A stretch of 64,000 nucleotides of DNA. Source: Methylophilaceae bacterium LSUCC0665 (GTDB lineage: Bacteria; Pseudomonadota; Gammaproteobacteria; Burkholderiales; Methylophilaceae). The stretch is taken from assembly GCA_024919215.1 (NCBI GenBank), contig CP103437.1, positions 372,001-436,000 on the forward strand. Direction: 5' to 3'. Each line of letters begins with the position of its first letter. Positions within the stretch are counted from its first letter, which is position 1. The notes under the pieces were generated by a model. The model worked only from the letters and a program-made list of their open reading frames with translations, was not told the DNA's origin and did not search any database. The translations under genes were made by a program, and so were the position numbers. This document shows positions 35,983 to 63,682 of the stretch, in pieces.

Positions 35983-36003
35983 AAATTTAAAAAATTAAAT
36001 AAG

Positions 36004-37212
36004 TTAATTATTTAATTTTTTAGTAGTAAACAAGTTATTCTTGGAGTGATTTTTTGAATAATTATTTTCCACAGCTTCATAAAAACCGATAAGTTTTTCT
36101 GTTTGTGCTCTGGAGCTCCATTTTTCTTTTGCTTCTTTTTTGCCTTGAATAGCCATTTCGGACATTTTTTTCCTATTATTTAGAAGCTTGCAACAAGCTT
36201 GAGCAAACTGTATTGGGTCATCCTTTCCAATAATTGCTCCAGGATTATTTTCCAGTATTGATTTTGTTCCATTTTCGGCTAAAGCAATAACAGGTAACCC
36301 TTGAGCCATGGCCTCAATCAGAACAAGGCCTTGCGTTTCAGTTTTTGAACTAAAAATAAAAAGATCTGAGGATGCGTAACAATTTAATAGTTCATTCTCA
36401 GCTTCTAGGTACCCGGTAAGTATTACAGATTTTTCTATATTTAATTTTTTTATAAGTTTCTGAATGTGGGAAAATGCTGGACCTTCGCCAGTAATCAGGA
36501 ATTTTACTGTACGGTTTTGTTTCAGAATATTTTTAAATGCATATAATAAGAAGTCAATGTTCTTCTCATGAGCAACTCGTCCAACAAACAATAACAATTT
36601 ATCATTAGGCGAGATATTATATAATTTACGGAAAGTATATTTATTAGTTTTCCTGAAAGAATTTTCCGATAATCCAGTCGGGACAACCTTTATAGGCTTG
36701 TTAACGTCATATCCTTCTAAAACATCCTTTAATTGTTCAGAGGGAGAGATAATACCATCGCAATGATTACATAAATATTTAGCTATATTTCTTGATAACC
36801 ATCGAGCGAAGCGCTCTGGAAGTATCGGTAAATAAAGATGAAGATAATCCTCGAAGGAGGTATGGTAAGTCTCAATAATTGGTATATCAAGAATCTTGGC
36901 TATTTTTTTTCCATAATAATGAGCAATAAATGGAGTTTGGATATGAATGAGATCAAATTTCTGTTTTTTAATCCAATCAGTTTGTTTGTTTAACTCTTTC
37001 CATGACATCAAATGGTCTTCTGGATCAAAAAAGATTGGTTTGGATTTAATTGTAGTAATGTTTTTTGATTTTGTACTTTTTTCATTATATGCCGGGCATA
37101 TTAAATGTACCTCATGATCTAATTTTTGTAGATCTTCAATAAATATCTTTATCGAAGTAGAGACACCATTGACTCTAGGAAAGTAGACATCAGATAAAAA
37201 TAAAATTTTCAT
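36004..37212 (-). CDS. GT4-family glycosyltransferase, diacylglycerol-glycosyltransferase-like
   Basis: This is a 402-residue GT-B fold enzyme. The N-terminal MKILFLSDVYFPRVNGVSTS is the form seen in lipid and phosphatidylinositol glycosyltransferases, with ETYHTSFEDYLHLY following at about residue 117. The C-terminal donor domain shows LLFVGRVAHEKNI, GEGP and the E-x7-E pair in TETQGLVLIEAMAQG. It is downstream of and overlaps a PAP2 phosphatase gene by 23 bases, which suggests use of diacylglycerol as acceptor. The donor (UDP-glucose or UDP-glucuronate) and the lipid acceptor are inferred from the surrounding lipid-modification genes, not shown by the sequence. Confidence 0.75.
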   Translation of the reverse strand: MKILFLSDVYFPRVNGVSTSIKIFIEDLQKLDHEVHLICPAYNEKSTKSKNITTIKSKPIFFDPEDHLMSWKELNKQTDWIKKQKFDLIHIQTPFIAHYYGKKIAKILDIPIIETYHTSFEDYLHLYLPILPERFARWLSRNIAKYLCNHCDGIISPSEQLKDVLEGYDVNKPIKVVPTGLSENSFRKTNKYTFRKLYNISPNDKLLLFVGRVAHEKNIDFLLYAFKNILKQNRTVKFLITGEGPAFSHIQKLIKKLNIEKSVILTGYLEAENELLNCYASSDLFIFSSKTETQGLVLIEAMAQGLPVIALAENGTKSILENNPGAIIGKDDPIQFAQACCKLLNNRKKMSEMAIQGKKEAKEKWSSRAQTEKLIGFYEAVENNYSKNHSKNNLFTTKKLNN

Positions 37213-37750
37213 ACTGTTGTTTATATATTAAAAATAGTTGGAAGATAAGATAGCCAATAATAGCCCCAATAAATACATCTGATGGAAAATGCATTCCAAG
37301 GATTACTCTTGATAAGGCAATTAAAAACGTAAAGATAATAAAAACTTCAGTTACTAAAGGGAAGTAAAATATTAGGATCATTGAAAAAATAACTGCATGA
37401 AGTGTATGACCAGATGGAAAACTGAATTGATCCAATATTTTTCCACCAAGAATGATAGATTGATTTACTTTATATGGTCTTGGGCGATTGATTTTAGATT
37501 TCAAGAGCTTATAAATTAAAGTACCTGCTAATCCGAAAAAGATCATCTCAAGAGATATTTTAATGCCATCAGCATGAAAGAATGGGATTAAAAATATAAT
37601 GAAATACCATATCTTTCCGTTACCTAGCCAGCTGATAAAGTTAAAAAAATAAAGAATCATCTGATTTTTTGAAAGCTTATTTAGCTTCACACAAAAGTCT
37701 GTATCAGCTTTATTGCAATGTAATAGAATTGTTTTTAATCCTTTGGGCAT
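37190..37750 (-). CDS. PAP2-family membrane phosphatase
   Basis: This integral membrane lipid phosphatase has all three motifs: K-x6-RP (KSKINRPRP, about residues 85-93), PSGH in SFPSGHTLHA (about residues 111-120) and SR-x5-H-x3-D in SRVILGMHFPSD (about residues 156-167). About five hydrophobic helices fill its 186 residues. Enzymes of this class dephosphorylate phosphatidic acid or isoprenoid pyrophosphates. Coupling to the downstream glycosyltransferase favours diacylglycerol production. The start is ATG 37750. Confidence 0.85.
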   Translation of the reverse strand: MPKGLKTILLHCNKADTDFCVKLNKLSKNQMILYFFNFISWLGNGKIWYFIIFLIPFFHADGIKISLEMIFFGLAGTLIYKLLKSKINRPRPYKVNQSIILGGKILDQFSFPSGHTLHAVIFSMILIFYFPLVTEVFIIFTFLIALSRVILGMHFPSDVFIGAIIGYLIFQLFLIYKQQYENFIFI

Positions 37751-37756
37751 GTTTTC

Positions 37757-37790
37757 AATATATTAGTGGTTTGTTAAACATTTATGACAA
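37757..37790 (-). promoter_or_regulatory. weak PhoB-like box and -10 of the PAP2-glycosyltransferase pair
   Basis: Reading the minus strand, a perfect half-site TTGTCAT (37790-37784) is followed by a 4-base spacer, a poor second half-site GTTTAAC, a 10-base gap and TATATT (37762-37757). The spacing equals that of classic pho promoters, but the second half-site matches only 3 of 7 positions. Confidence 0.3.
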
Positions 37791-37873
37791 TTTTGAGATC
37801 ATTTTTAATGATAATTAGGGTTATTTCCTTTTGTCATATAAATGAAACAATTTGATGAAAAAATCACAGATGT

Positions 37874-38857
37874 ATGAAAAATATCTTAATTGCAACAGAT
37901 ACATTTGAACAAGTAAACGGCGTTTCAACAACTTACAAAAATATTTTTGAATTCTCTAACAATAAAATAAAAATAATTCATCCAGCATTATTCAAATACA
38001 AATCTTTTAATGCTTATCCAGAAATCCAGTTTTGTTTTCAGTTTTTCAAGGTGTATAAGGAAATTAAAAAACATAATCCCACCCATATTCATATAGCCAC
38101 AGAAGGACCAATTGGTTTGGTAGCCAGAATTTACTGCAAATTTAATAAATTACCTTTTACATCGGCGTACCATACTCGATTTCCTGAATATTTAGAATCA
38201 TATTTTGGACGATTTAAAAATATCGCCTACTTCTATTTGAAAATATTTCATAAGAAATCGAAAATGATTTTTGTTCCAAGCAAATCTTGTCTAGATGATT
38301 TAAAAAAATTAGGATTCACAAATCTTCATTTATGGACTCGGGGTGTATCTAAGGATTTAATTATTGATGCTCCTTTTAAGAGAAAAAATAAAAATAAGAT
38401 CAAAGTCCTATATGTTGGCAGAGTATCCAAAGAGAAAAATCTGATGAAATTATGTGAATTACATAATTATTTTGAGATAACTATTGTCGGTGATGGTCCA
38501 ATTAGAAATGAATTAGAAAACAAATATAAAAGTATCAATTTTGTTGGCTATAAATTTGGTAAAGATTTAGCCAAATATTATCATGCGAATGATGTATTTT
38601 GTTTTCCAAGCTTAACTGATACTTTTGGAATAGTTATTATTGAAGCTCTTTCAAATGGCCTTCCTGTTGCTGCCTATAATGTTACTGGACCTAAGGATAT
38701 AGTTACACATGGAGTGGATGGTTTTCTTGGAAAAAATTTAAAAGAAAATATTGAGCTTGCATTTGGTTTAAATCGTAACCAAATTAGGCGTCAATCATCC
38801 AGAAAATGGTCTTGGCAAGAATGTCATGATATTCTAATTTCAGGTTTAACTCATTGA
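37874..38857 (+). CDS. GT4-family glycosyltransferase, Agt-like (glycosyl-diacylglycerol synthesis)
   Basis: This 327-residue GT-B enzyme has the acceptor-domain block IHIATEGPIGLVAR at about residues 74-87 and FTSAYHTRFPEYLES at about residues 96-110. To my knowledge this block is characteristic of Agt-type transferases that make glucosyl- or glucuronosyl-diacylglycerol in phosphate-starved proteobacteria. The donor domain shows VLYVGRVSKEKNL and the E-x7-E region TDTFGIVIIEALSNG (Asp replacing the first Glu). It is coupled to UDP-glucose dehydrogenase: the TTG of that gene overlaps this stop as TTGA. UDP-glucuronate is therefore a likely donor. The role is inference from family and context. 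Confidence 0.75.
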   Translation: MKNILIATDTFEQVNGVSTTYKNIFEFSNNKIKIIHPALFKYKSFNAYPEIQFCFQFFKVYKEIKKHNPTHIHIATEGPIGLVARIYCKFNKLPFTSAYHTRFPEYLESYFGRFKNIAYFYLKIFHKKSKMIFVPSKSCLDDLKKLGFTNLHLWTRGVSKDLIIDAPFKRKNKNKIKVLYVGRVSKEKNLMKLCELHNYFEITIVGDGPIRNELENKYKSINFVGYKFGKDLAKYYHANDVFCFPSLTDTFGIVIIEALSNGLPVAAYNVTGPKDIVTHGVDGFLGKNLKENIELAFGLNRNQIRRQSSRKWSWQECHDILISGLTH

Positions 38858-40023
38858 AGATTGCTATTGTTGGTATAGGTTATGTTGGATTAGCAAATGC
38901 CATAATGCTTGATCAACTGCACAATGTTGTATTGGTTGATGTTGATGAGAGTAAAGTAAAAAAAATTAATCAGAGGAAATCACCAATTAGTGACTCAATG
39001 ATCGATGATTATTTGATTAATGTAAGTAAAGATTTTGCAGCAACTAAAAATTTTGAAAAAGCTTATAAAAGCCGAGAGTTAATCATCATTGCTACACCAA
39101 CAAATTATGATGTAGATAATGATTCTTTTGATACATCTTCAATTGAAAAATCTATTCAAAATATTTTAAAAGTTAACAAGGATTGCATAATATTAATTAA
39201 ATCAACGATACCTGTTGGTTATACGAATTATTTAAGAAAAATTTTTAAATATGAAAAGATTTATTTTTCACCAGAGTTTCTCCGGGAGGGCACGGCGCTG
39301 TATGATTGTTTAAACCCCTCAAGGATAGTGGTCGGTGGAAAAGACCAATATGCAAAAAAAATTGGCAAGATATTCAAAAAACTTTCTCTAAATAGAACAG
39401 CCCCATTAATATTTACTAATGAATTAGAGGCGGAATCAATAAAATTGTTTGCAAATACATACCTTGCCATGAGAGTAGCATTTTTTAATGAATTAGATAC
39501 ATATGCAATTAAATTGGGTATGGATACAAAAGATATATTAGATGGAGTTTGTACAGATTCCAGAATTGGAAATTTTTACAATAATCCTTCTTTTGGCTAT
39601 GGTGGGTATTGCTTACCAAAAGATACCAAACAGTTATTATCTTCTTATAAGCAAATTCCTAATAATCTGATGAAGGCTATAGTAGATAGTAACCAGACAA
39701 GAAAACAATTTATAGCAAATAAAATTATTGAAAAAAAGGTAAAAACAATTGGTGTATATAGATTGGTTATGAAATCAAAATCAGATAACTTTAGAGAATC
39801 AGCCATTATTGACGTAATTAAGATTTTGAAACAGGAAGGCCAAAAAATTATTATTTATGAACCATTGCTTGATCAACAAAAAAGTATAATGACTTTTGAT
39901 ATTGAAAAATCTTTTAAAAAATTTACTGATAATTCTGATTTGATTATTGCAAATCGCATTGATACGAAAATAAAACCTTTTGAAAAAAAGATTTTCTCTC
40001 GCAGTATTTCTGATGAAAATTAA
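38854..40023 (+). CDS. ugd: UDP-glucose 6-dehydrogenase
   Basis: This enzyme oxidises UDP-glucose to UDP-glucuronate with two NAD+. The Rossmann loop is MKIAIVGIGYVGLANA. STIPVGYT and FSPEFLREG follow at about residues 116-145, and the catalytic Cys is in FGYGGYCLPKDTKQ at about residue 253. The length of 389 matches the E. coli-type Ugd. It starts with TTG inside the stop of the upstream glycosyltransferase, so the two form a two-gene operon. It converges on the acyltransferase gene with no gap. Confidence 0.93.
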   Translation: MKIAIVGIGYVGLANAIMLDQLHNVVLVDVDESKVKKINQRKSPISDSMIDDYLINVSKDFAATKNFEKAYKSRELIIIATPTNYDVDNDSFDTSSIEKSIQNILKVNKDCIILIKSTIPVGYTNYLRKIFKYEKIYFSPEFLREGTALYDCLNPSRIVVGGKDQYAKKIGKIFKKLSLNRTAPLIFTNELEAESIKLFANTYLAMRVAFFNELDTYAIKLGMDTKDILDGVCTDSRIGNFYNNPSFGYGGYCLPKDTKQLLSSYKQIPNNLMKAIVDSNQTRKQFIANKIIEKKVKTIGVYRLVMKSKSDNFRESAIIDVIKILKQEGQKIIIYEPLLDQQKSIMTFDIEKSFKKFTDNSDLIIANRIDTKIKPFEKKIFSRSISDEN

Positions 40024-40797
40024 TTACTTTAGAAAATGAGCTTTATATTTACTGGGCAAATTTTCTAAATCGAGTAAAGTAAGAAAATCAGCAGTTTGAA
40101 ACTCTGGATCCCAAGCAGGTTTACCAATAATTTTTGCTCCGAGTCTAATATAGCCATTTAACAATGGAGGTATATTACCTTTTTCATCATTGCATAACTT
40201 TTCAACAGGTAATGGGTGAAGTGGATAAACATCATCTAAGTCAAGAAATTGTTTATGCGACTTCAGTTGATTATATAAATTGGCAGCATTAAATCCTCCA
40301 TCTTTCACTGAAACACTTGAACAGCCAATCAGGTATCGAAATTTATTGGTAACCATAAATTTTGCAATTTCAGCCCATAACATCATGATCACTCCGCCAG
40401 TTCGATATTTTTTATCAATACATGCTCTTCCAAGCTCTATCATCTCATTTTTTATTGAAGCAAGACTTCCAATATTGAATTCACTTTCAGTGTAGAGAGA
40501 GCCATACTCTTTAGCTTTATAAGGGGTAAGAATTCTATACGTACCAACAGGTTGGTTATTAATTGCATCTTTAATAATTAGATGTTCGCAGTAATCATCA
40601 AGTGTATCCTTGTCGAGTGATCCTTTGATATTTGCTCCCATTTCCTTTTTGAAGATTTTATAACGAAGTTTTTGTACCATTTGTAAATCTTTTTTATCTC
40701 TTACCCAATCTGCTATGATTAATGGGTTTGCAGATGATTTATTTATTCTTTTAGCACTTTGGATATTTTGCTGAATTTGCAGATTTGTAATTTTCAT
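40024..40797 (-). CDS. GNAT-type N-acyltransferase, OlsB-like (lyso-ornithine-lipid synthesis)
   Basis: This 257-residue protein belongs to the acyltransferase family of OlsB and the so-called hemolysin acyltransferases. LRYKIFKKEMGANIKG at about residues 43-58, DDYCEHLIIKD, and ELGRACIDKKYRTGGVIMML to YLIGCSSVSVKDGG at about residues 121-165 follow the OlsB pattern. OlsB transfers a 3-hydroxyacyl group from ACP to ornithine, giving a phosphorus-free lipid precursor. It lies 14 bases downstream of plcP on the same strand and close to a PlsC/OlsA-like gene, which supports this. The amino acid acceptor cannot be read from sequence. Confidence 0.7.
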   Translation of the reverse strand: MKITNLQIQQNIQSAKRINKSSANPLIIADWVRDKKDLQMVQKLRYKIFKKEMGANIKGSLDKDTLDDYCEHLIIKDAINNQPVGTYRILTPYKAKEYGSLYTESEFNIGSLASIKNEMIELGRACIDKKYRTGGVIMMLWAEIAKFMVTNKFRYLIGCSSVSVKDGGFNAANLYNQLKSHKQFLDLDDVYPLHPLPVEKLCNDEKGNIPPLLNGYIRLGAKIIGKPAWDPEFQTADFLTLLDLENLPSKYKAHFLK

Positions 40798-40811
40798 ATT
40801 AACTCCTTTGG

Positions 40812-41549
40812 CTATTTAATTTCTTTCCAATATATTAATTTTATATTTCCATTTTTGTCTTCTACTAAAGCTGAAAGATGCTCAACCCAGTCTCCGTCAT
40901 TGTAGTAATTGATTCCATCAATAGTTTCTATTTCAGGATGATGAATATGACCACAAATAACCCCGTCACACTTACTTCTTCTTGCTTCATTTACCATAAA
41001 TAATTTATAGTTTTTTATGTATTTTTTTACGTTTTTAGACTTCATTTTTACCTGAGTTGCAAATGACCAATGGGGGAGATTTCTTGAATTTCTCCAGTCA
41101 GTAATTTTTGTTGAGATGAATATAAAAAAAGAATAAAGAAGGTCACCAAGTTTGTTCATTAAGACTGATACATTTCTGACACTATCGAATTGATCTCCAT
41201 GTGTCACTAATATTCTTTTTTTTTGTTTAGTTAAATGAATTGTATTTTTCTTAAATGAAATTGAGGAAAATTTAATCAAGCTTATAAAATTCCTTAAAAA
41301 TGAGTCATGATTTCCTGGGACATAAATGACTTTAGACTTTCTTGAAATTTTTAGAATTACCCTGATGAATTGATTATGGGATTTTGGCCAGTACCATTTT
41401 TTGTTTAATTCCCAGCCATCAATGATATCTCCTACTAAATATATTTTATCTGCGGTATTATGCTTAAAGAAATTAATGAGATGCTTAACATTGGAAGACT
41501 TTGTTCCTAGGTGAGTATCTGATATCCAAATGGTACTAAAGTGATTCAT
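40812..41549 (-). CDS. plcP: PlcP-type metallophosphoesterase (phospholipid phospholipase C)
   Basis: This calcineurin-like phosphoesterase has all metal-site blocks: WISDTHLG (about 8-15), VGDIIDGWELNKKWYWP (about 39-55), PGNHDSFLRN (about 74-83), VTHGDQFDSVRN and CGHIHHPEIETIDG. The WYWPKSHN and HGDQFD variants are those of PlcP, which hydrolyses phospholipids to diacylglycerol under phosphate limitation, rather than LpxH, which it superficially resembles. It leads an operon with the OlsB-like gene and carries a PhoB-box-like promoter. The start is ATG 41549. Confidence 0.75.
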   Translation of the reverse strand: MNHFSTIWISDTHLGTKSSNVKHLINFFKHNTADKIYLVGDIIDGWELNKKWYWPKSHNQFIRVILKISRKSKVIYVPGNHDSFLRNFISLIKFSSISFKKNTIHLTKQKKRILVTHGDQFDSVRNVSVLMNKLGDLLYSFFIFISTKITDWRNSRNLPHWSFATQVKMKSKNVKKYIKNYKLFMVNEARRSKCDGVICGHIHHPEIETIDGINYYNDGDWVEHLSALVEDKNGNIKLIYWKEIK

Positions 41550-41572
41550 GAAAATCTATCAAAGTTTTAGTA

Positions 41573-41606
41573 ATCTTATTTTATGAATATGAAAAAAATA
41601 TGACAG
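41573..41606 (-). promoter_or_regulatory. PhoB box and -10 element of plcP
   Basis: On the minus strand CTGTCAT (41606-41600), a 4-base spacer ATTT and TTTTCAT (41595-41589) match the PhoB consensus CTGTCAT-N4-CTGTCAT at 12 of 14 positions. Exactly 10 bases further is TAAGAT (41578-41573), the -10 spacing of phoA-type promoters; an alternative -10, TAAAAT, lies at 41583-41578. The box ends 39 bases before the plcP ATG and overlaps the first codons of the divergent acyltransferase gene. Confidence 0.55.
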
Positions 41607-42337
41607 TTTTAAGTTTAGTAAAAATTTTGCAATTATTTGTTCATGTTCTGTTTGGACTCTTTTTGGTCATTACATTTCCTGTAATAACAAAAAAAATGAG
41701 AACTCAATTTATAAAATCTTGGTGCCTTTTTTTATTAAGGATTCTTAAGGTAAAAGTAGAAATATCTGGCATAAATTTACGTTTGTTAAGAAATAATTTT
41801 TTTGTTGCAAACCATATCTCTTGGTTAGATATTATAGTTATCAACAGTATTATGCCTGTTGTATTCGTTGCCAAATCATCAGTAAAAAGCTGGCCGATTT
41901 TTGGATTAATGGCTAGGTTTACTAATACAATTTTTTTAGATCGCTCATCAAAAACCTCAATGTTAAGAGCTTACCAACAAATTAAAGAAACATTAAATGA
42001 CTCATCTATTTTTATTTTTCCAGAAGGTACTTCTACAGTTGGTAAACATGTTGAACCGTTTCATAGTAATTTTTTTCAAATTCCAGTTGATTTAAAAAAA
42101 TCGACTTACCCAGTTTCTATCGAATATTTTAAAGATAATCAATTTACAAATATTCCAGCATATGTCGGTAATGACACCTTGGTTGAATCAATTCTAAGAA
42201 TAGTTAGAAACCCTGGTTTTGAGGTTATGGTTACATACTTTAATGGTATAAACAGTAGCAATAAAAGTCGAAAAGAGATTGCTCTTAAAGCAAATGAGAT
42301 TATTAATACACAAATAGCTAAGAAGTTACAATCTTAA
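41600..42337 (+). CDS. PlsC-family 1-acylglycerol-3-phosphate / lyso-lipid O-acyltransferase (OlsA-like candidate)
   Basis: This membrane-associated acyltransferase has the NHISWLDI (H-x4-D) motif at about residues 71-78, an arginine-containing FLDRSSKT block and FPEGTSTVG at about residues 139-147. An N-terminal hydrophobic helix anchors it. Its 245 residues and pairing with an OlsB-like gene suggest OlsA function (acylation of lyso-ornithine lipid), though a general PlsC role is possible. It is divergent from plcP by 50 bases, and its 3' end overlaps the converging ppx gene by 20 bases. Confidence 0.8.
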   Translation: MTVLSLVKILQLFVHVLFGLFLVITFPVITKKMRTQFIKSWCLFLLRILKVKVEISGINLRLLRNNFFVANHISWLDIIVINSIMPVVFVAKSSVKSWPIFGLMARFTNTIFLDRSSKTSMLRAYQQIKETLNDSSIFIFPEGTSTVGKHVEPFHSNFFQIPVDLKKSTYPVSIEYFKDNQFTNIPAYVGNDTLVESILRIVRNPGFEVMVTYFNGINSSNKSRKEIALKANEIINTQIAKKLQS

Positions 42338-43901
42338 AATAACTATTTATTTTTTTCCAATATGAATTTTCTTTTTTTAATCTGTAGGAAAGATAGGGGT
42401 TTTGCCTTAACCATTCTTTTTTGAAGCTAATGATGATTTTTTTAGTTGTCTTCTCAATTTTTATATTAGAAAAATCGAATAATTCTCTATTTTTACATAA
42501 AATATAACTTAGCCTTAGCGTGAACAACATAACCCAGTCGATATATTTTTTATTAAAATTATAAGTGTTTAATGATGCTCTATGGGCATGAATGAGAGTG
42601 GATAGCCTTACCTTTTGTTTATTGGTAAATCCATGAAGTTCACTATTGCTGACAATGTAACTTGAATATATATGATAATTTTTGAGGTTTATTGATTTAC
42701 CTATTTCCAATAATCTTGATGCCCATAATAAAAGTTTTCGATCTTCTTCTTTGGTAATTAAGCGTTCCGACATTGATAGGGCAGTTAAGTAAACTCTATT
42801 AGATTGTTTAGCGTCGGAATAAAATTTTTCCTCAAGAATTTTTATTTCTTCTTCACATTGATCTTTGATCTTATCAGACACATCTAACGGAATAATTTTT
42901 TTATATGCTCCAATAGCATTATTTGGATTCTCAATTAAATTAAATAATCTTTTATGAATAGATCCATATAAAAGAGCTGATTCTGTAACTTCCATTTGTT
43001 TAATTTTTAAGTGCTCAAAAATAGCTAATAAAATCGATAACCCGCTTGCAATCACTGCTTTTCGTTCACTTTTTATTCCGCTGAGATTTGATTGATTAAC
43101 ATTTCCGGCCTGTATGAGCTCAGTTTTTATTGCCTTTAGTCCTTTGAGTGTTATAAAACCTCCAATTTCATCAATGGGACTATTGGTGGTTGTATCAAGG
43201 TTATTGAGTAAAATAATATCAGCTACGGCTCTGCATGTTCCAGATGTGCCAATTACATTTGCCCAGTTATTAAAATTTTTATTTAAGTTTTTTTCTAAAA
43301 TCTTTTTTGCATGAACTACAGCATTATCAAAAGTTTTTTTGGTGACTTTGGTTCCATCAAAAAAGCTCACCGCAGAGGTAACACAGCCCATGGAAAGTGA
43401 TAATGAATCTTTAATTTTTTTTCGATCACCAATAATGATTTCTGTGGACCCTCCACCAATATCAATAATTAATTGTTTGCCACTTAGCTCCGGTGAAACA
43501 TGCATGACGCCTTGGTAAATAAATTCAGCCTCATCAGTGCCAGATATAATCTCAATATCAAAACCTAAAAGCTTTTGAGCATTGTCGATGAAATTTTTAT
43601 TTTTTATTGAGCGGAGCGTATAGGTTCCGACTGCAGTGACAGATTTTTTATCAAATCTACGAAGGCGATCACCAAATCTAATGAGGGTTTCGTAAGTCTT
43701 TTTGACATATTTTTCTGAGAGAAAACCTTTATCGTCCAATCCGGAGGCAATTTTAATTGACTCTTTGATAGTATCGAGTTCTTCAATGTGAAGAATTCCG
43801 TTATGGGATATGATTTTAGCAATCATTAATTTGAAGCTGTTGGAGCCTAAATCAATAGCAGCTACTAAGTTCTCTGTTTTATTCGATATAAAAGGATCCA
43901 T
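42318..43901 (-). CDS. ppx: exopolyphosphatase (Ppx/GppA family)
   Basis: This processive hydrolase removes terminal phosphate from polyphosphate or converts pppGpp to ppGpp. The ASKHA phosphate loops are clear: VAAIDLGSNSFKLMIAK at about residues 13-29 and LIIDIGGGSTEIIIGDRK at about residues 142-159. The HD-type C-terminal domain is present, giving 527 residues. It lies at the end of the lipid-remodelling block and, with ppk1 at 53714, completes polyphosphate turnover in this window. Its 3' end overlaps the acyltransferase gene by 20 bases. Confidence 0.92.
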   Translation of the reverse strand: MDPFISNKTENLVAAIDLGSNSFKLMIAKIISHNGILHIEELDTIKESIKIASGLDDKGFLSEKYVKKTYETLIRFGDRLRRFDKKSVTAVGTYTLRSIKNKNFIDNAQKLLGFDIEIISGTDEAEFIYQGVMHVSPELSGKQLIIDIGGGSTEIIIGDRKKIKDSLSLSMGCVTSAVSFFDGTKVTKKTFDNAVVHAKKILEKNLNKNFNNWANVIGTSGTCRAVADIILLNNLDTTTNSPIDEIGGFITLKGLKAIKTELIQAGNVNQSNLSGIKSERKAVIASGLSILLAIFEHLKIKQMEVTESALLYGSIHKRLFNLIENPNNAIGAYKKIIPLDVSDKIKDQCEEEIKILEEKFYSDAKQSNRVYLTALSMSERLITKEEDRKLLLWASRLLEIGKSINLKNYHIYSSYIVSNSELHGFTNKQKVRLSTLIHAHRASLNTYNFNKKYIDWVMLFTLRLSYILCKNRELFDFSNIKIEKTTKKIIISFKKEWLRQNPYLSYRLKKENSYWKKINSYFKIVTS

Positions 43902-52149: not shown

Positions 52150-52282
52150 AAATAAATATTAACTTAAATTGATTATAATTTTTTAAAAATAAAACAAGAC
52201 ATTATAATTTATTTTATTTTATGTCTTTATTATAATTAAATAATTGTTTATAATAATATTTTTTAATATATGGAGAAGATAA

Positions 52283-52471
52283 ATGGCGAAATCGTTGAAG
52301 AAAAAAGTATTGGTGAAGGTTGCAAAAAAAGCTGTTAAAAAAGCTGATGTGAAGAAAAAGAAAGTAGCCAAAGTTTTGAAATTTGCTAAAAAAGTTGTTT
52401 CAAAAAAAGCTCCTTCGAAGTTAAAGGTAGCAAAAAGAATTGTGAAAAAAGCAGTCAAAAAAGCTGCTTAA
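52283..52471 (+). CDS. Lys/Ala-rich histone H1-like protein
   Basis: This 62-residue protein is built from AKK/VKK/KKA units (MAKSLKKKVLVKVAKKAVKK and onward) with no acidic stretch, like bacterial H1-type nucleoid proteins. It has a strong GGAGA ribosome-binding site 7 bases before ATG and its own intrinsic terminator. The reverse-strand frame over the same bases encodes a Phe-rich sequence and is not credible. A DNA- or RNA-compacting role is inferred from composition only. Confidence 0.75.
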   Translation: MAKSLKKKVLVKVAKKAVKKADVKKKKVAKVLKFAKKVVSKKAPSKLKVAKRIVKKAVKKAA

Positions 52472-52483
52472 AAATATCGAACA

Positions 52484-52516
52484 AAAAAAACCCGCCAGAT
52501 GGCGGGTTTTTTATTT
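52484..52516 (+). terminator. intrinsic terminator of the H1-like gene
   Basis: CCCGCC (52491-52496) and GGCGGG (52501-52506) form a GC-rich stem with an AGAT loop, preceded by an A-run and followed by TTTTTT. A-tails on both sides make it usable from either strand. Confidence 0.92.
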
Positions 52517-52521
52517 ACTTA

Positions 52522-52641
52522 TCACTGAAATAAATAAAATATTAATAATGCTAAAGCGGTAATGTTAAGTATAAAAATAACTAACTTGTTTATTTTAACT
52601 TGCTTCTTTTTCGCTAGTTTTTTTTGATTTTTCTTTTTCAT
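52522..52641 (-). CDS. small Lys-rich single-pass membrane protein, 39 residues
   Basis: The frame starts at ATG 52641 with a good GGAAGGAAG ribosome-binding site 5 bases upstream. The first 19 residues are strongly basic (MKKKNQKKLAKKKQVKINK) and the rest is one hydrophobic helix (LVIFILNITALALLIFYLFQ). It lies 13 bases downstream of the next minus-strand gene's stop, so the two may be co-transcribed. No family is recognised. Confidence 0.55.
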   Translation of the reverse strand: MKKKNQKKLAKKKQVKINKLVIFILNITALALLIFYLFQ

Positions 52642-52654
52642 TCGCGCTTCCTTC

Positions 52655-53491
52655 CTAATATCTTCCTGGAAAAACTCCTGAAGCAACATTTATTAATAGT
52701 TTATGGCCTTTTTGACGGTATCGATTAATATACCGCTTCACATTACTCATTTCCTTAATATCAATATTTTTTACAATTGCTCGAATGAGAGGATTTGATT
52801 TCTTCATATTTTCATACAATTCTTTGAATTTTAATAAAGAGGCTGGGGCTGTATCTTTATATTCAGGTTTATTTACAACCAGGCTGACTTGGTATGCTAA
52901 TTCTTGTTTATCTTCAAACTTCTGATCGAAGACTGTTTTATTTAGCTCAAGTAGCAACTTAATATTGATTGGCTTAAGTCCTTTGTTAATAGTCGGTGAA
53001 AATTTGTGTTTAATGATTACCTCTTGAGCCTTCGTTTTATCCAGGATTGGTTTCATGACTTTTTTGAATTGGTTAATCAGTGTATCCATTGATTTGTTAG
53101 TTGGGATACTTAAATTAACCGCTGTTTTTGATTTATCTAATTTGCTTATCTCTTCGACAGTAGAAGTATCTTCGAATAAATAAGCTTTCTCTTTCCACCA
53201 AGCGGTAAAGTTTGTTGCATCTGCTTTCCACTCTTTATAAAACTTCTTATGTTTTTTGTAAGCCTGATGAATTTTTTTATCTGAGGATATTGCGACTTGT
53301 TGATAAGCTTCAAACCATAACTGATAAGTTGATTTAGGGGCGATTAAATATTCTGGTATTGGCATTACTTTAGGAGCAGTTTTTTTTACTACTTTTTTTG
53401 ATGAAGTGGGTGCAAGAGAATTATGCTTCTTGATATAAGCATCGACCGAAGTTAATTTAGTTTTCGTTACTCTTTTATTATTTTGAGCCAT
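52655..53491 (-). CDS. uncharacterised Lys-rich protein
   Basis: This 278-residue protein is predicted soluble. It has a basic, low-complexity N-terminus (NNKRVTKTKLTSVDAYIKKH, then KKVVKKTAPKV), a Trp/Lys-rich middle (WFEAYQQ, KKHKKFYKEWKADA, FTAWWKEKAYLF) and a basic C-terminus. The SYQLWFEAYQ-like and YKEWKADATNFTAWW repeats of aromatic residues hint at a helical bundle. No signal peptide, membrane segment or catalytic motif is visible. The composition recalls proteins acting on nucleic acid. The upstream 180 bases are AT-rich and lead to the ppk1 Pho promoter on the other strand. Confidence 0.65.
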   Translation of the reverse strand: MAQNNKRVTKTKLTSVDAYIKKHNSLAPTSSKKVVKKTAPKVMPIPEYLIAPKSTYQLWFEAYQQVAISSDKKIHQAYKKHKKFYKEWKADATNFTAWWKEKAYLFEDTSTVEEISKLDKSKTAVNLSIPTNKSMDTLINQFKKVMKPILDKTKAQEVIIKHKFSPTINKGLKPINIKLLLELNKTVFDQKFEDKQELAYQVSLVVNKPEYKDTAPASLLKFKELYENMKKSNPLIRAIVKNIDIKEMSNVKRYINRYRQKGHKLLINVASGVFPGRY

Positions 53492-53671
53492 TTTTTTTGA
53501 TCCTTAAACAAAATGAAATTAGTCCGGACATATTAACAAAAAAATAATAATGTCTCAAGACATTATTAAAATATTTTCTTACTGTCTTTGTAATAAGAAT
53601 AAGATTGGACTCGTTTTGAAGATGTCAATTGTTTATATATAATTTAAAGCCAAAACATACACTTATGACAT

Positions 53672-53705
53672 TTGTCATAATTTTGTCATTTTAATTTATT
53701 ACTAT
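53672..53705 (+). promoter_or_regulatory. PhoB box and -10 element of ppk1-arsC-acr3
   Basis: Two identical half-sites TTGTCAT (53672-53678 and 53683-53689) are separated by 4 bases (AATT), the exact 11-base period of PhoB sites. Each differs from CTGTCAT by one base. Ten bases downstream is TACTAT (53700-53705), a fair -10 at pho-promoter spacing. An inverted copy ATGACA lies just upstream (53665-53670). Confidence 0.7.
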
Positions 53706-53713
53706 CCAAGCTG

Positions 53714-55753
53714 ATGAGCTTTACATATAATGACCGAGAACTAAGTAATTTAGATTTTATATCTAGAGTTCTTACTATTGCATCAAATCCAAAAGTTCCT
53801 CTAATTGAGCGTTTTCGGTATGTCTGTATTTGTTGTTCCTTGTTAGATGAATTTTTTGAAATACGATTCTCAAGCGTGCTTGAAGAAGCCAAGAACACAA
53901 AAAATCAGAAAAATATTCAAAAGAAGATTGATTTAATTCAAAAAAAATCAAAAAAAATTGAAAAAGAGATTCAAGCTGAGCTCTTCGGAAAAATTATTCC
54001 CGAGCTAAGAAACAATGAAATAACATTATTCATAGACAACGACTGGCCTGAAAAGTATAGCAAGACAATTAAACGTATTTTTACTCAACAGGTCAAGCCT
54101 TATCTCAATTTGATTGTTTTAAATGTGAATAGACCATTTCCAAAAATGATTAATAAATCAACTGGTTACTTCGTTGAGCTGCAGGAAAAAGATACGAAGC
54201 AAACTCGATATGCCATTGTCCAGATCCCAAGAATGTTTCAAAGAGTCTACGAGCTTCCTAAGCAGACTACGGGAGCAAAAAAATATGGTTTTGTTTTCCT
54301 GGTGGCAATGATGCGCGAGTTTGCCAGTATATTATTCCCTGATCATAACTATATAGATGAATACCAATTTAAGGTTACCAGGAATTCAGATTTGTTATTA
54401 TCAGCAGAAGATATGGATGATCTCAGGGATTCAATATCAGGTAAATTAATGACCAGGCAAACAGGTGAGCCAGTTAGAATTGAAACATCGACCAGAATGC
54501 CTAAAAATATTGTTAAGTTTATTGCAGACAATCATGATGTTACAACAAACTTTGTTCACCCTTTCAGGGGCACCCCTTCATTAGCGAATTATATAGGCCT
54601 ATTGGATCATATCAACAACCCAAGCTTCTTTTTTCCGAAACATCAGCCGAGAAAAATTAATTTTGGGGAAGATATTTTTCAATGGATAAAAGAAAAAGAT
54701 CGACTTGCACATCACCCCTATGAGAGTTTTGATATTGTGAATCAGTTTGTAAAATCTGCTGCTACTGATCCGAATGTGGTATCGATTAAACAAACAATTT
54801 ATCGAGCAGATAAAAAATCCAAACTTATTCAGTCTTTAATGGAGGCATCAATTAACGGGATTGATGTGAATGTTGTTATTGAATTGCAAGCAAGGTTTGA
54901 TGAAGAGGCGAATTTAAAGTGGGCTGAAAAACTAGAGAATGTTGGAGCGCACGTAGTTCATGGAAAACCCAATTTTAAATGCCATGCCAAATTATTAATA
55001 ATTAGTCGAAAAGAAATAAACCCAAACAATAAAAAGCCGTATATTCAGCATTATGCGCATTTGGGTACAGGAAACTATAGTGCTGGCAATGCAAGCTCCT
55101 ATACAGATTTTGGGCTTTTTACTGCGGATAAAACAATATGTAGTGATATCTTGATGACCTTTGATTTTTTATCAGGTGTGCGCAAGGAGCTTAAACCCAA
55201 GGAGATAATAAATTCACCAGAGAGGCATATATTGTTTTTAAAAAGAATGATATCTCATGAGATCAAACAAGCTAGGCTTGGAAAAACTGCTGAAATGATT
55301 ATTAAGGTCAATTCATTAACGGATACTAGAGTGATTGATATGCTTTACAGGGCTTCAAATAGTGGGGTAAGGATAACCATGATTATTCGTGGCGTATCAA
55401 GATTAATTCCGGGAATAAAAGGGCAATCAGAAAACATAAGGGTCTTATCCACTGTTGGGAGATTTTTAGAACACCACAGAATATTCTATTTCTACCATGG
55501 AGGAAAAGAACTCGTGTATTGTTCTTCGGCCGACTGGATGGAGAGAAATCTGTCTAGAAGAACTGAAGTGACCTTTCCAATCAAAAATCAGAGATTGAAA
55601 GAAAGAGTCATTGATGAAGCTCTTTATCCTCATATCGACTCTAAGCACACCTATTGGCTTTCAAAAAAATTGGACTACTCACTGAAAAATAAAAAAGGCG
55701 ATGCACGCCACCCGAACGAGATTGCTCTTGAAAAATCTATCATAACTAATTAG
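53714..55753 (+). CDS. ppk1: polyphosphate kinase 1
   Basis: This enzyme polymerises the gamma-phosphate of ATP into polyphosphate. The N-terminal domain begins NDRELSNLDFISRVL and includes SLLDEFFEIRFSSV. The catalytic PLD-like domains contain the autophosphorylated His in AHLGTGNYSAGNASSYTD near residue 455 and the second His in FLEHHRIFYFYHGG near residue 590. The length of 679 is standard. If the proposed -10 is used, transcription would start only a few bases before the ATG. It is followed after 23 bases by arsC. Confidence 0.95.
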   Translation: MSFTYNDRELSNLDFISRVLTIASNPKVPLIERFRYVCICCSLLDEFFEIRFSSVLEEAKNTKNQKNIQKKIDLIQKKSKKIEKEIQAELFGKIIPELRNNEITLFIDNDWPEKYSKTIKRIFTQQVKPYLNLIVLNVNRPFPKMINKSTGYFVELQEKDTKQTRYAIVQIPRMFQRVYELPKQTTGAKKYGFVFLVAMMREFASILFPDHNYIDEYQFKVTRNSDLLLSAEDMDDLRDSISGKLMTRQTGEPVRIETSTRMPKNIVKFIADNHDVTTNFVHPFRGTPSLANYIGLLDHINNPSFFFPKHQPRKINFGEDIFQWIKEKDRLAHHPYESFDIVNQFVKSAATDPNVVSIKQTIYRADKKSKLIQSLMEASINGIDVNVVIELQARFDEEANLKWAEKLENVGAHVVHGKPNFKCHAKLLIISRKEINPNNKKPYIQHYAHLGTGNYSAGNASSYTDFGLFTADKTICSDILMTFDFLSGVRKELKPKEIINSPERHILFLKRMISHEIKQARLGKTAEMIIKVNSLTDTRVIDMLYRASNSGVRITMIIRGVSRLIPGIKGQSENIRVLSTVGRFLEHHRIFYFYHGGKELVYCSSADWMERNLSRRTEVTFPIKNQRLKERVIDEALYPHIDSKHTYWLSKKLDYSLKNKKGDARHPNEIALEKSIITN

Positions 55754-55776
55754 ATATATTTTTTACTTAAAAAATA

Positions 55777-56244
55777 ATGAATATTGCATTTATCTGTACA
55801 CATAACAGTTGTCGAAGCATTATGGCTGAGGCCATAGCGAAATCAATAAACTCTAATAATTTTAATGCTTATAGTGCGGGAAGCACTCCAGCTGGAGTGA
55901 TTTATACAAAAGCTTTAGAAACTTTAAAAGCTAACAATATCAGCATTAATGACTTATCCTCTAAGTCGATTGATGATTTATCTCATATTAGATTTGATGC
56001 CGTCATCACGCTGTGTGGTAATGCTCATAAGGAACCATGCCCTATATGGGTTGGCGATTGCATTAAAGATCATTGGGGCTTTGAAGACCCTTCTGCTTTT
56101 ACTGATGGTCCTGAAAAGGATAAGGCGTTTCAAGATTTATTCGATAAATTGAAGAGAGTTATTTCGAGACTTGATGAGTTAATTCAAAATAATCCTGAAT
56201 CAATAGCAACACATATCAAGCACATAAAGGAGACTTTGGTCTAA
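55777..56244 (+). CDS. arsC: arsenate reductase, low-molecular-weight phosphatase type
   Basis: This thioredoxin-coupled arsenate reductase has the phosphatase-like loop C-x5-R in CTHNSCRSIMAEA (residues 8-14) and the resolving cysteines in LCGNAHKEPCPIWVG (about residues 81-91). Together they mark the Staphylococcus pI258-type ArsC rather than a tyrosine phosphatase. WGFEDPSAF is the Asp loop. Its last base is the first of acr3, so the reductase and the arsenite exporter are translationally coupled. Confidence 0.9.
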   Translation: MNIAFICTHNSCRSIMAEAIAKSINSNNFNAYSAGSTPAGVIYTKALETLKANNISINDLSSKSIDDLSHIRFDAVITLCGNAHKEPCPIWVGDCIKDHWGFEDPSAFTDGPEKDKAFQDLFDKLKRVISRLDELIQNNPESIATHIKHIKETLV

Positions 56245-57248
56245 TGGGAATTTTTGAGAAATATTTAAGCGTTTGGGTTTTTCTAGCAATTGTCATAGGT
56301 CAATCATTGGGTTTGGTTTTTCCTCAGCAATTCCAACAAATCGCAATTCTTGAATATCATAATATTAATCTAGTGATTGCCATTCTTATCTGGGCAATGA
56401 TCTTCCCAATGATGTTGCAGATTGATTTTACAAAAATTAAAGACTTGTCTAGAAATACTGGTGGATTATTTCTAACATTGTCAATTAACTGGCTAATCAA
56501 GCCTTTCACAATGTTTTTTTTCGCGACTTTGTTTATGACATACATTTTCAGCAATTATATTCCTGCGGAACTGGCTCAAGCATATATTGCTGGCATGATT
56601 TTACTTGGAGTAGCTCCATGTACTGCGATGGTATTCGTATGGAGCCATTTAATGAAAGGTGATTCTAACTACACACTTATTCAGGTTTCAGTGAATGATT
56701 TAATTATGCTTTTTGCCTTTGCACCAATTGCTGGATTCCTGTTACAGGTCTCTGATATTGTCGTACCGTATGAAACTTTATTTACATCAGTACTATTATT
56801 TATTGTTATGCCATTGATTGCATCAATTTTTATTCGTCAATTTTTTAAAAAAAATATTATTAATATTATTCAAAAGCTCAAACCATTTTCCATTTTTTCC
56901 TTATTGCTAACCATAGTGATATTGTTTGGCTTGCAATCGAATAATATTGCGAATAATTTTTTCCACATGGTTTTGATAGCAATTCCTTTAATTTTACAAA
57001 CATACCTCATATTTTATCTGGGTTATTTTATCTCCAAAAAAATAAGGCTAAATAAAAAAATTGCTGGTCCAGCATGTTTAATTGGTACTTCTAATTTTTT
57101 TGAGTTAGCAGTTGCCGTTGCAATAACTTTATTTGGTTTAAATTCACCTGCTGCATTAGCTACCATTGTTGGGGTTTTGGTTGAAGTTCCAGTGATGCTT
57201 CACTTGGTAAGTATTATCAATAAAAAATACAAACCCTCCTTTAAGTAA
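56244..57248 (+). CDS. acr3: ACR3-family arsenite efflux transporter
   Basis: This 334-residue membrane exporter has about ten hydrophobic helices. The ACR3 hallmark LLGVAPCTAMVFVWSHLMKG (about residues 121-140) contains the essential Cys, and MIFPMMLQIDF near residue 53 and LIGTSNFFELAVAVA near residue 276 match the family. It expels the arsenite produced by the upstream ArsC and completes the ppk1-arsC-acr3 transcription unit. tRNA-Arg lies 29 bases downstream. Confidence 0.93.
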   Translation: MGIFEKYLSVWVFLAIVIGQSLGLVFPQQFQQIAILEYHNINLVIAILIWAMIFPMMLQIDFTKIKDLSRNTGGLFLTLSINWLIKPFTMFFFATLFMTYIFSNYIPAELAQAYIAGMILLGVAPCTAMVFVWSHLMKGDSNYTLIQVSVNDLIMLFAFAPIAGFLLQVSDIVVPYETLFTSVLLFIVMPLIASIFIRQFFKKNIINIIQKLKPFSIFSLLLTIVILFGLQSNNIANNFFHMVLIAIPLILQTYLIFYLGYFISKKIRLNKKIAGPACLIGTSNFFELAVAVAITLFGLNSPAALATIVGVLVEVPVMLHLVSIINKKYKPSFK

Positions 57249-57277
57249 TTATCAAGTTAAAATATCTTTATTAATAT

Positions 57278-57353
57278 GCCCTCGTAGCTCAGTGGATAGA
57301 GCATCCCCCTCCTAAGGGGAGGGTCGCACGTTCGATTCGTGCCGAGGGCGCCA
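57278..57353 (+). tRNA. tRNA-Arg(CCU)
   Basis: Acceptor GCCCTCG pairs with CGAGGGC (57343-57349). The anticodon loop CTCCTAA between TCCCC and GGGGA gives CCT. CCA is encoded at 57351-57353. Its D-arm sequence recurs at 60227-60246, marking this tRNA as a probable recombination or insertion point. Confidence 0.97.
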
Positions 57354-58023: not shown

Positions 58024-58302
58024 ATGAAGTACATGCTTCTTATCTCTTTTTTTATATCCTCATTTCTTTTTGCAGAGGGCAACCCCTTTTTGGATGGATA
58101 TTATCAAAGAGACAATCCCTTCTTAGATGGGTATGTCCAGGATACTAACCCATTTCTTGATGGATACATTCAAAGAGATAATCCATTTCTAGATGGTTAT
58201 GTACAAGACACAAATCCCTTTGCTGATGGATATATTCAAGACTCCAATCCTTTCTTAGATGGTTATGTCCAGGATAAGTCCGTCTTTGGATTTGATGAAT
58301 GA
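58024..58302 (+). CDS. secreted tandem-repeat protein, 11-residue NPFLDGY repeats
   Basis: This 92-residue protein consists of a signal peptide (MKYMLLISFFISSFLFAEG) and six back-to-back 11-residue repeats of the form NPFLDGYxQxx (residues 20-85), then SVFGFDE. Repeat ends alternate between QRD and QDT in the first four copies. The gene overlaps the next repeat-protein gene by 4 bases (ATGA), so the two are produced together and probably both exported by Sec. I know no characterised function. The regular Asn-Pro/Asp-Gly turns suggest a solenoid or calcium-binding repeat, which is inference. Confidence 0.8.
   Translation: MKYMLLISFFISSFLFAEGNPFLDGYYQRDNPFLDGYVQDTNPFLDGYIQRDNPFLDGYVQDTNPFADGYIQDSNPFLDGYVQDKSVFGFDE
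58081..58278 (+). repeat. six 33-bp in-frame tandem repeats
   Basis: Six consecutive 33-bp units each encode NPFLDGY[YVI]Q plus two variable residues (copy 5 has NPFADGY). Codons differ between copies at many silent positions while the protein is nearly unchanged. Confidence 0.9.
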
Positions 58303-58589
58303 AAAAACTTATATTAGCTTTAGCAGTAATCTCAACATCAGCATTTGCTGGAGTCACCTCTTGGGAAGACAGTCCTAACAATTGGGAAAATTCAGAGCAC
58401 AATTGGGATAACTCTTCGAATAACTGGGAGAACAGTCCAAACAATTGGGAAAATAATCCTAACAACTTGAATAGTGATCGTGTCATTCGTGATAATGATG
58501 GTAATGCGACTGGATATGCTGTGCCTAATTCCAATGGCGTGACTAATATTTATGATTTAGATGGAAATCGAGAAGGGTATGTGCGTTAA
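58299..58589 (+). CDS. secreted heptad-repeat protein, NNWENSP repeats
   Basis: This 96-residue protein has a signal peptide (MKKLILALAVISTSAFAG), five Trp residues exactly seven apart (W22, W29, W36, W43, W50) within NNWENSP-type repeats, and a C-terminal module (RVIRDNDGNATGYAVPNSNG, then VTNIYDLDGNREGYV) with two DxxGNxxGY units. Similar short exported proteins with xYNWxNS repeats and a GNxxGY tail occur in many proteobacteria, uncharacterised as far as I know. It is translationally coupled to the NPFLDGY-repeat gene. A strong stop region follows but no clear terminator. Confidence 0.8.
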   Translation: MKKLILALAVISTSAFAGVTSWEDSPNNWENSEHNWDNSSNNWENSPNNWENNPNNLNSDRVIRDNDGNATGYAVPNSNGVTNIYDLDGNREGYVR

Positions 58590-63085: not shown

Positions 63086-63352
63086 TTAATATCCTGCTTC
63101 TTTAGTATATCCGTATTTGTCTTTCAGTTCTCTATTGTATTTTTCCCACCAGTTATAGCATTGATAGTTAAATTTTAGGTATGGATAGTTATGCTCATCC
63201 AACACTCTTTGGTTGGCAATTTCTTTTAAAAGTTCACCAGCCATTTGACAATTTTCTATCGATGTAAATTTGTTATATTCGACTGTGGGTTCCCAAGTAC
63301 AGATATTTCCTATGCATACTCCAACTAAATACGTATAAAAAGCTAAATTCAT
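63086..63352 (-). CDS. small protein with four cysteines, probably exported
   Basis: The product has 88 residues. A short hydrophobic N-terminus (MNLAFYTYLVGVCIGNICTW) is followed by a hydrophilic, Tyr/Trp-rich body with further Cys residues (SIENCQMAG, NYQCYNWWEKY). The cysteine pattern would suit disulfides in the periplasm. It is preceded by a plausible GGAGAG ribosome-binding site. No family is recognised. Confidence 0.55.
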   Translation of the reverse strand: MNLAFYTYLVGVCIGNICTWEPTVEYNKFTSIENCQMAGELLKEIANQRVLDEHNYPYLKFNYQCYNWWEKYNRELKDKYGYTKEAGY

Positions 63353-63682
63353 GATCTCTCCTTTTAAACTATTTAATTCAGGATAGGCTTGATTTTCACA
63401 TATGTCAAGACAGTATATATTAAAATATATTATGTCTTTTATTATGGGTAAAATATAAGAATAGAATTAGTTTAGTGGTTAGGCAAGATATGATTTCTAA
63501 AAGTTTATCCTATAAAAATTTTGACTAGATTGCATATTTGTGACAGATAATTTTTAAGGTTCTAAATTTAAAAAATCGTTTTGATTATTTAGTTTTAAAA
63601 ATATTAAAAAATTTGATATTTTTTTTATAAAAAAATTAAAATAAGTGATGATAATTTTTATACTTATAAGTTGTGAGAAGAA
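63353..63682. other. 330-base intergenic region
   Basis: This is a very AT-rich region between divergent genes with no credible coding frame. It must contain both promoters, but no convincing -35/-10 pair stands out. A stretch at 63467-63485 looks a little like a tRNA D-arm but does not extend to a cloverleaf. Confidence 0.5.

Follow-up and report, generated by a model that had tools for sequence, protein, structure and literature searches.

A putative phosphate-controlled operon joining polyphosphate kinase to arsenate detoxification in a Methylophilaceae bacterium

We analysed a stretch of 64,000 nucleotides from the genome of Methylophilaceae bacterium LSUCC0665 (contig CP103437.1, positions 372,001 to 436,000; hereafter the window), in which genes for a polyphosphate kinase, an arsenate reductase and an arsenite efflux transporter follow one another on the plus strand behind a Pho box. 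The host is a small free-living bacterium, probably marine; its genome of 1.31 Mb, its 35% GC and the composition of the family suggest an OM43-like marine member of the Methylophilaceae. The first gene, ppk1 (53714-55753, +), encodes a protein of 679 aa that scored 684.6 bits with TIGR03705 (cut-off 465.9) and aligned with the solved E. coli-type PPK1 (1xdo) over 649 residues (5-653), both catalytic-histidine regions included; full-length domains and catalytic histidines together mark it as a predicted polyphosphate kinase 1. The last gene, acr3 (56244-57248, +; 334 aa), belongs to the ACR3 arsenite efflux family, exceeding the curated cut-off of TIGR00832 (355.9 versus 282.8 bits). Between them lies arsC (55777-56244, +; 155 aa), separated from ppk1 by 23 nt and overlapping acr3 by one base.

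The arsC product has the low-molecular-weight phosphatase fold (PF01451, 70.9 bits). Its best solved matches were arsenate reductases of the S. aureus type, and alignment with 2cd7 and 1ljl showed that it retains the CX5R loop as CTxNSCRS, the second and third cysteines, and HWGFxDP. With arsC_pI258 it scored 89.5 bits, under the equivalog cut-off of 174.3, and it does not qualify for the thioredoxin-type ArsC equivalog. Its place below the NCBIfam equivalog cut-offs would suit a low-molecular-weight phosphatase acting on polyphosphate or protein instead of arsenate, as would the presence of another phosphatase-like (SixA-type) gene at the same place in a related genome, G010. We nevertheless consider a phosphatase of this kind very improbable, because the protein most resembles arsenate reductases among solved structures, it has both the resolving cysteines and the HWGFxDP motif, and its gene overlaps acr3, arsC-acr3 adjacency being common elsewhere. 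The protein fits the broad class of arsenate reductases with this fold.

Upstream of ppk1, the Pho box TTGTCAT-AATT-TTGTCAT (53672-53689, +) is composed of two half-sites (53672-53678 and 53683-53689) with 4-nt spacing, and a 10-nt spacer leads from it to the -10 hexamer TACTAT (53700-53705, +), at the same spacing as before pstS and oprP. An earlier note on this DNA had described the box, the -10 and the 23-base and one-base spacings, and our reading of the sequence and its open reading frames (ORFs) bore out every one of these elements at its position. The ppk1 ATG at 53714, as read from the sequence, lies 8 nt beyond the -10, predicting a nearly leaderless mRNA. In genomes G000 and G001, transcription is predicted to start only a few bases from the ATG, suggesting a leaderless ppk1 mRNA in both.

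Exact matches to TGTCAT-N5-TGTCAT occurred at two places in the genome, the pstS and ppk1 promoters, as compared with 0-1 in each random genome of equal composition. Allowing up to one mismatch gave 13 sites genome-wide; those that were intergenic, scored well and had a TAxxAT-like -10 exactly 10 nt on were the sites before ppk1, pstS, oprP and a gene for a PlcP-like metallophosphoesterase, the oprP and PlcP-like boxes being near matches with the same 10-nt distance to the -10. We also scored sites with a Pho matrix whose only training sites were those at pstS and oprP in this genome and in genome G019, with ppk1 left out. In the window the ppk1 box ranked first, at 21.3 bits; a random 1.31-Mb genome held no site of 20 bits or more. 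Our survey of relatives covered 91 genomes, 31 of the genus and about 60 of the family and order. This type of ppk1 was present in 4 of the 31 genus genomes, arsC in 3 and acr3 in 4, and each of the four species carrying such a ppk1 has retained the box in front of the gene, with scores of 26.4 bits in G001, 19.9 in G010 and 19.3 in G026, where the box is made up of three overlapping half-sites.

The ppk1 promoter carries a tandem direct-repeat Pho box with the correct -10 spacing. Isolated half-sites are common in AT-rich DNA and could, in principle, produce a functionless match, but the position and the -10 spacing are conserved in four species and the score lies beyond any in a random genome, making chance a scarcely credible explanation. 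A looser pattern allowing two mismatches was uninformative (14 in the window against 9.1 expected), and a box of 14.1 bits before an agt-like glycosyltransferase gene is not significant alone. The matrix found no box before phoB, nor before the ppk of the type in G019.

PhoB and PhoR appear to be encoded in the genome, as a PhoB-type gene (282.7 bits) lies at 1051509 and the gene after it is PhoR-like, resembling a histidine kinase. The genome also has pstSCAB and a gene for an OprP-like porin, and the pstS and oprP boxes share the layout of the ppk1 box. With these genes present, and with boxes of like layout and conservation in four species, the Pho control proposed in the earlier note is strongly supported.

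That note had named a terminator or a separate promoter between ppk1 and arsC as what would overturn an operon. The gap holds no plus-strand terminator, and the number of promoter-like matches across the region did not exceed chance (17 found, 18.8 expected). The layout in G001 is identical, with the 23-nt gap and the 1-nt overlap, and the PPK1, ArsC and Acr3 proteins are 90, 75 and 87% identical. All three genes are intact and under purifying selection, with dN/dS of about 0.04 for ppk1, 0.12 for arsC and 0.06 for acr3, values that are approximate as dS is saturated. Gene order and spacing support the three genes as one unit here and in G001.

Alternatively, arsC and acr3 might be controlled by arsenite through their own promoter and an unlinked ArsR, with the Pho box driving ppk1 only. 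An unlinked arsR is a known arrangement, as in Synechocystis (PMC4284471), and a 9/12 promoter-like match stretches across the ppk1-arsC gap (55751-55778). We judge this arrangement improbable, as promoter-like matches were no more frequent than chance, the gap is merely 23 nt and conserved in length, and the single ArsR-type gene with PF01022 looks to be of the BigR type. This gene is 470 kb away and adjoins an ORF read by eye as a BigR-type sulfide-response partner, so that no arsenic ArsR was seen in a genome-wide search with PF01022, other ArsR-type models not having been run. The linked ArsR repressor of a classical ars operon is lacking, with no ArsR gene near the unit.

By comparison of coordinates, ppk1-arsC adjacency was found in none of the about 60 other family and order genomes. 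We further inspected up to 5-8 kb on each side of acr3 at 80 loci from named genomes, which are the best of at least 588 and hence a sample, and at 14 viral-contig loci, and found no ppk near acr3 at any of them. The unit was seen in this genome and, identically, in a second species; a third has two small genes between ppk1 and arsC. The fusion had been thought unusual, and this survey agrees, since the adjacency appeared nowhere else in the 91 relatives or the 94 other acr3 loci; we found no description of ppk1-arsC-acr3 as a unit in the open-access literature. Upstream of the 80 other acr3 genes, one Pho-like site was found versus 0.4 expected, which means that within this sample acr3 is not generally under Pho control.

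Beyond what the earlier note had described, the unit sits in an accessory segment together with further polyphosphate-linked genes. The segment, of about 5.1 kb (roughly 52155-57250), lies between pepA and tRNA-Arg(CCT) (57278-57353, +), which forms its downstream edge, and it carries genes for a 62-aa protein and a divergent 278-aa lysine-rich protein besides ppk1, arsC and acr3. G003 and G015 (pepA 90% identical) have an empty site, where about 230 bp after pepA take in a small Zn-ribbon-like ORF and reach tRNA-Arg(CCT), and G007 is likewise without the segment genes. We propose that the segment was gained or lost as a block. Across the genus, insertions are concentrated at tRNA-Arg, with integrases or a second partial tRNA copy in G003, G007, G010, G015 and G018. 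Besides integrases and partial tRNA copies, a CsoR-type metal-regulator cluster is inserted after tRNA-Arg(CCT) in relatives (L252, L253 and L254). G003, a close relative without ppk1, has a PPK2 gene beside tRNA-Pro (L257 3488-4339); the matching spot in the window (35983-36003) has no gene, and an exchange of PPK1 and PPK2 is possible.

Such a history raises the question of whether the three genes are neighbours simply by sharing an accessory segment, with arsC and acr3 riding behind ppk1 and co-expressed without selected benefit. The patchiness of the segment, its position at a tRNA-Arg flanked in relatives by integrases or tRNA fragments, and the separation of acr3 from ppk1 in G019 are all compatible with this explanation. 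We think it unlikely, although less so than the alternatives above, because G001, whose proteins have diverged by about 10-25%, keeps the tight spacing and 1-nt overlap, all three genes are under purifying selection, and it is well established that phosphate uptake and arsenate are biochemically linked.

Arsenate, which resembles phosphate, enters cells via phosphate transporters, and phosphate-starved cells are therefore the most exposed. We consider it probable that ppk1, arsC and acr3 form a PhoB-activated operon in which arsenate defence is set by phosphate need. When phosphate is scarce, PhoR would phosphorylate PhoB, which we infer would bind both half-sites, these standing in for a -35 element, and a single transcript would begin a short way before the ATG of ppk1. 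The kinase would then make polyphosphate from ATP, holding scarce phosphate, at a time when low phosphate would also raise uptake through OprP and Pst, both admitting arsenate. Co-induced ArsC would reduce arsenate to arsenite and Acr3 would export the arsenite. The benefit would lie in a defence set in advance by phosphate need and not by arsenite sensing.

Several points weigh against this operon model, in addition to the ArsC scores below cut-off. The 282.7 bits of PhoB fall slightly under the equivalog cut-off of 296.2, as in most of the control genomes. In G010, ppk1 and arsC are split by a 98-aa gene (TTG start) and the SixA-like gene, one of them with its own promoter-like sequence, which makes for looser linkage there, and in G019 acr3 is on a different contig from ppk1, so that linkage is not obligatory. 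An arsenic-responsive ArsR of a family outside PF01022 could exist.

Known systems share parts of this arrangement. ppk is commonly Pho-induced, and the box resembles those of the Pho regulon, with ppk as a member, in its tandem 7-nt half-sites spaced by 4 nt in place of a -35 (PMC4415409); unlike the usual Pho-regulon ppk, the ppk1 transcript here is predicted to carry arsenate detoxification genes too. Acr3 of Prochlorococcus is counted among the low-phosphate genes alongside PhoBR and PhoA, the argument being that arsenate comes in together with phosphate (PMC3686209), and arsB of Crocosphaera is induced by phosphate starvation (PMC4284471). These genes likewise tie arsenite efflux to phosphate scarcity in oligotrophic marine microbes, and Pho-linked efflux being known in marine cyanobacteria, the logic is not new. 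They are, however, cyanobacterial, with no ppk operon described in the text consulted, whereas the arsenic genes here stand behind ppk1 as part of one unit, in a lineage that we infer to be betaproteobacterial. In cyanobacterial arsR-pstS-gap3-MFS-arsB-arsC clusters, too, a gene related to phosphate stands next to those for Acr3 and an arsenate reductase (PMC4284471); those clusters are likely arsenic-regulated, ArsR heading some of them, whereas a Pho box and a storage enzyme head the unit here. The ppk1 operon is a new and uncommon form of Pho-linked arsenate detoxification.

The remaining genes of the segment share a further element with a third gene of the window. An inverted repeat, AAGACAT-N18-ATGTCTT, lies without mismatch (52196-52227, +) before the gene for the lysine-rich 62-aa protein (52283-52471, +), which has 26 lysines (42%); downstream of the gene are a hairpin resembling a terminator and a T run. 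This gene is missed by ordinary ORF cut-offs; judged by eye, homologues are present in G001 and G026 and the G010 copy is degenerate. Two tandem copies of the repeat (53525-53556, three mismatches, and 53557-53588, one mismatch; -) precede the 278-aa gene (52655-53491, -), which is divergent from ppk1. The third repeat-bearing gene encodes an 88-aa protein (63086-63352, -), and its repeat, with one mismatch (63407-63438, -), directly adjoins a TTGACA -35, a position that would suit an activator. Genome-wide, the perfect repeat and all AT-rich one-mismatch sites were those before these three genes, and one further one-mismatch site has a GC-richer spacer and was taken as lying within coding sequence; random genomes held no perfect repeat and 0-2 with one mismatch. 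Orthologues in G001, G010, G026 and G019 are likewise preceded by the repeat.

The 278-aa family was present in 5 of the 31 genus genomes, all with a ppk1 (hypergeometric p = 3.5e-5, relatedness ignored), and the 88-aa family in 4 of the 91 relatives (G000, G001, G010 and G019), all ppk1 carriers. The 278- and 89-aa homologues of G019 are found at a further phosphate locus, with pst genes on one side and oprP on the other. No credible Pfam match emerged for the 62-, 88- or 278-aa proteins, and structure prediction for the 278-aa protein from four sequences gave no usable fold (mean pLDDT 40.8). The 62-aa protein recalls AlgP of Pseudomonas aeruginosa, a lysine-rich, histone H1-like protein associated with polyphosphate granules, in its Lys/Ala-rich polycationic sequence and its polyphosphate link (PMC9239181); it is shorter, with no shared domain or KPAA repeats, and the likeness is one of composition only. 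That the 278- and 88-aa proteins were found only in ppk1-carrying genomes suggests that the three proteins and their repeat form a polyphosphate-accessory regulon, so far undescribed, although the co-occurrence and repeat data are leads and not proof. More tentatively, a polyphosphate programme may have the operon at its core and include a second regulon, in which an activator on AAGACAT-N18-ATGTCTT would switch on the three proteins to dress or organise granules, arsenate detoxification being bundled in because granule-building cells would import phosphate and arsenate most strongly. This protein set with its own putative operator is a more novel lead than the operon.

Elsewhere in the window, 36004-43901 encodes two glycosyltransferases, PAP2, a UDP-glucose-dehydrogenase-like protein, an OlsB-like GNAT acyltransferase, the PlcP-like phosphoesterase, a PlsC-like acyltransferase and Ppx/GppA, and is a probable phosphate-scarcity cluster; the Pho box of the PlcP-like gene is at 41573-41606 (-). 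Marine bacteria are known to have plcP clusters for lipid remodelling that carry Pho boxes (PMC4796936). Two small adjoining proteins, probably secreted, with short repeats NPFLDGYxQ and NNWENS, are encoded at 58024-58589, and a relative of these is found in G007 (L254 12721-13014).

Phosphate storage and arsenate removal under one phosphate switch would be a concrete case of anticipatory regulation in a streamlined bacterium, and the presence or absence of the operon among close relatives may serve as a genetic marker for low-phosphate adaptation. To our knowledge, few bacterial polyphosphate granule proteins are known, and the co-occurring neighbour proteins with their shared repeat could give a handle on them.

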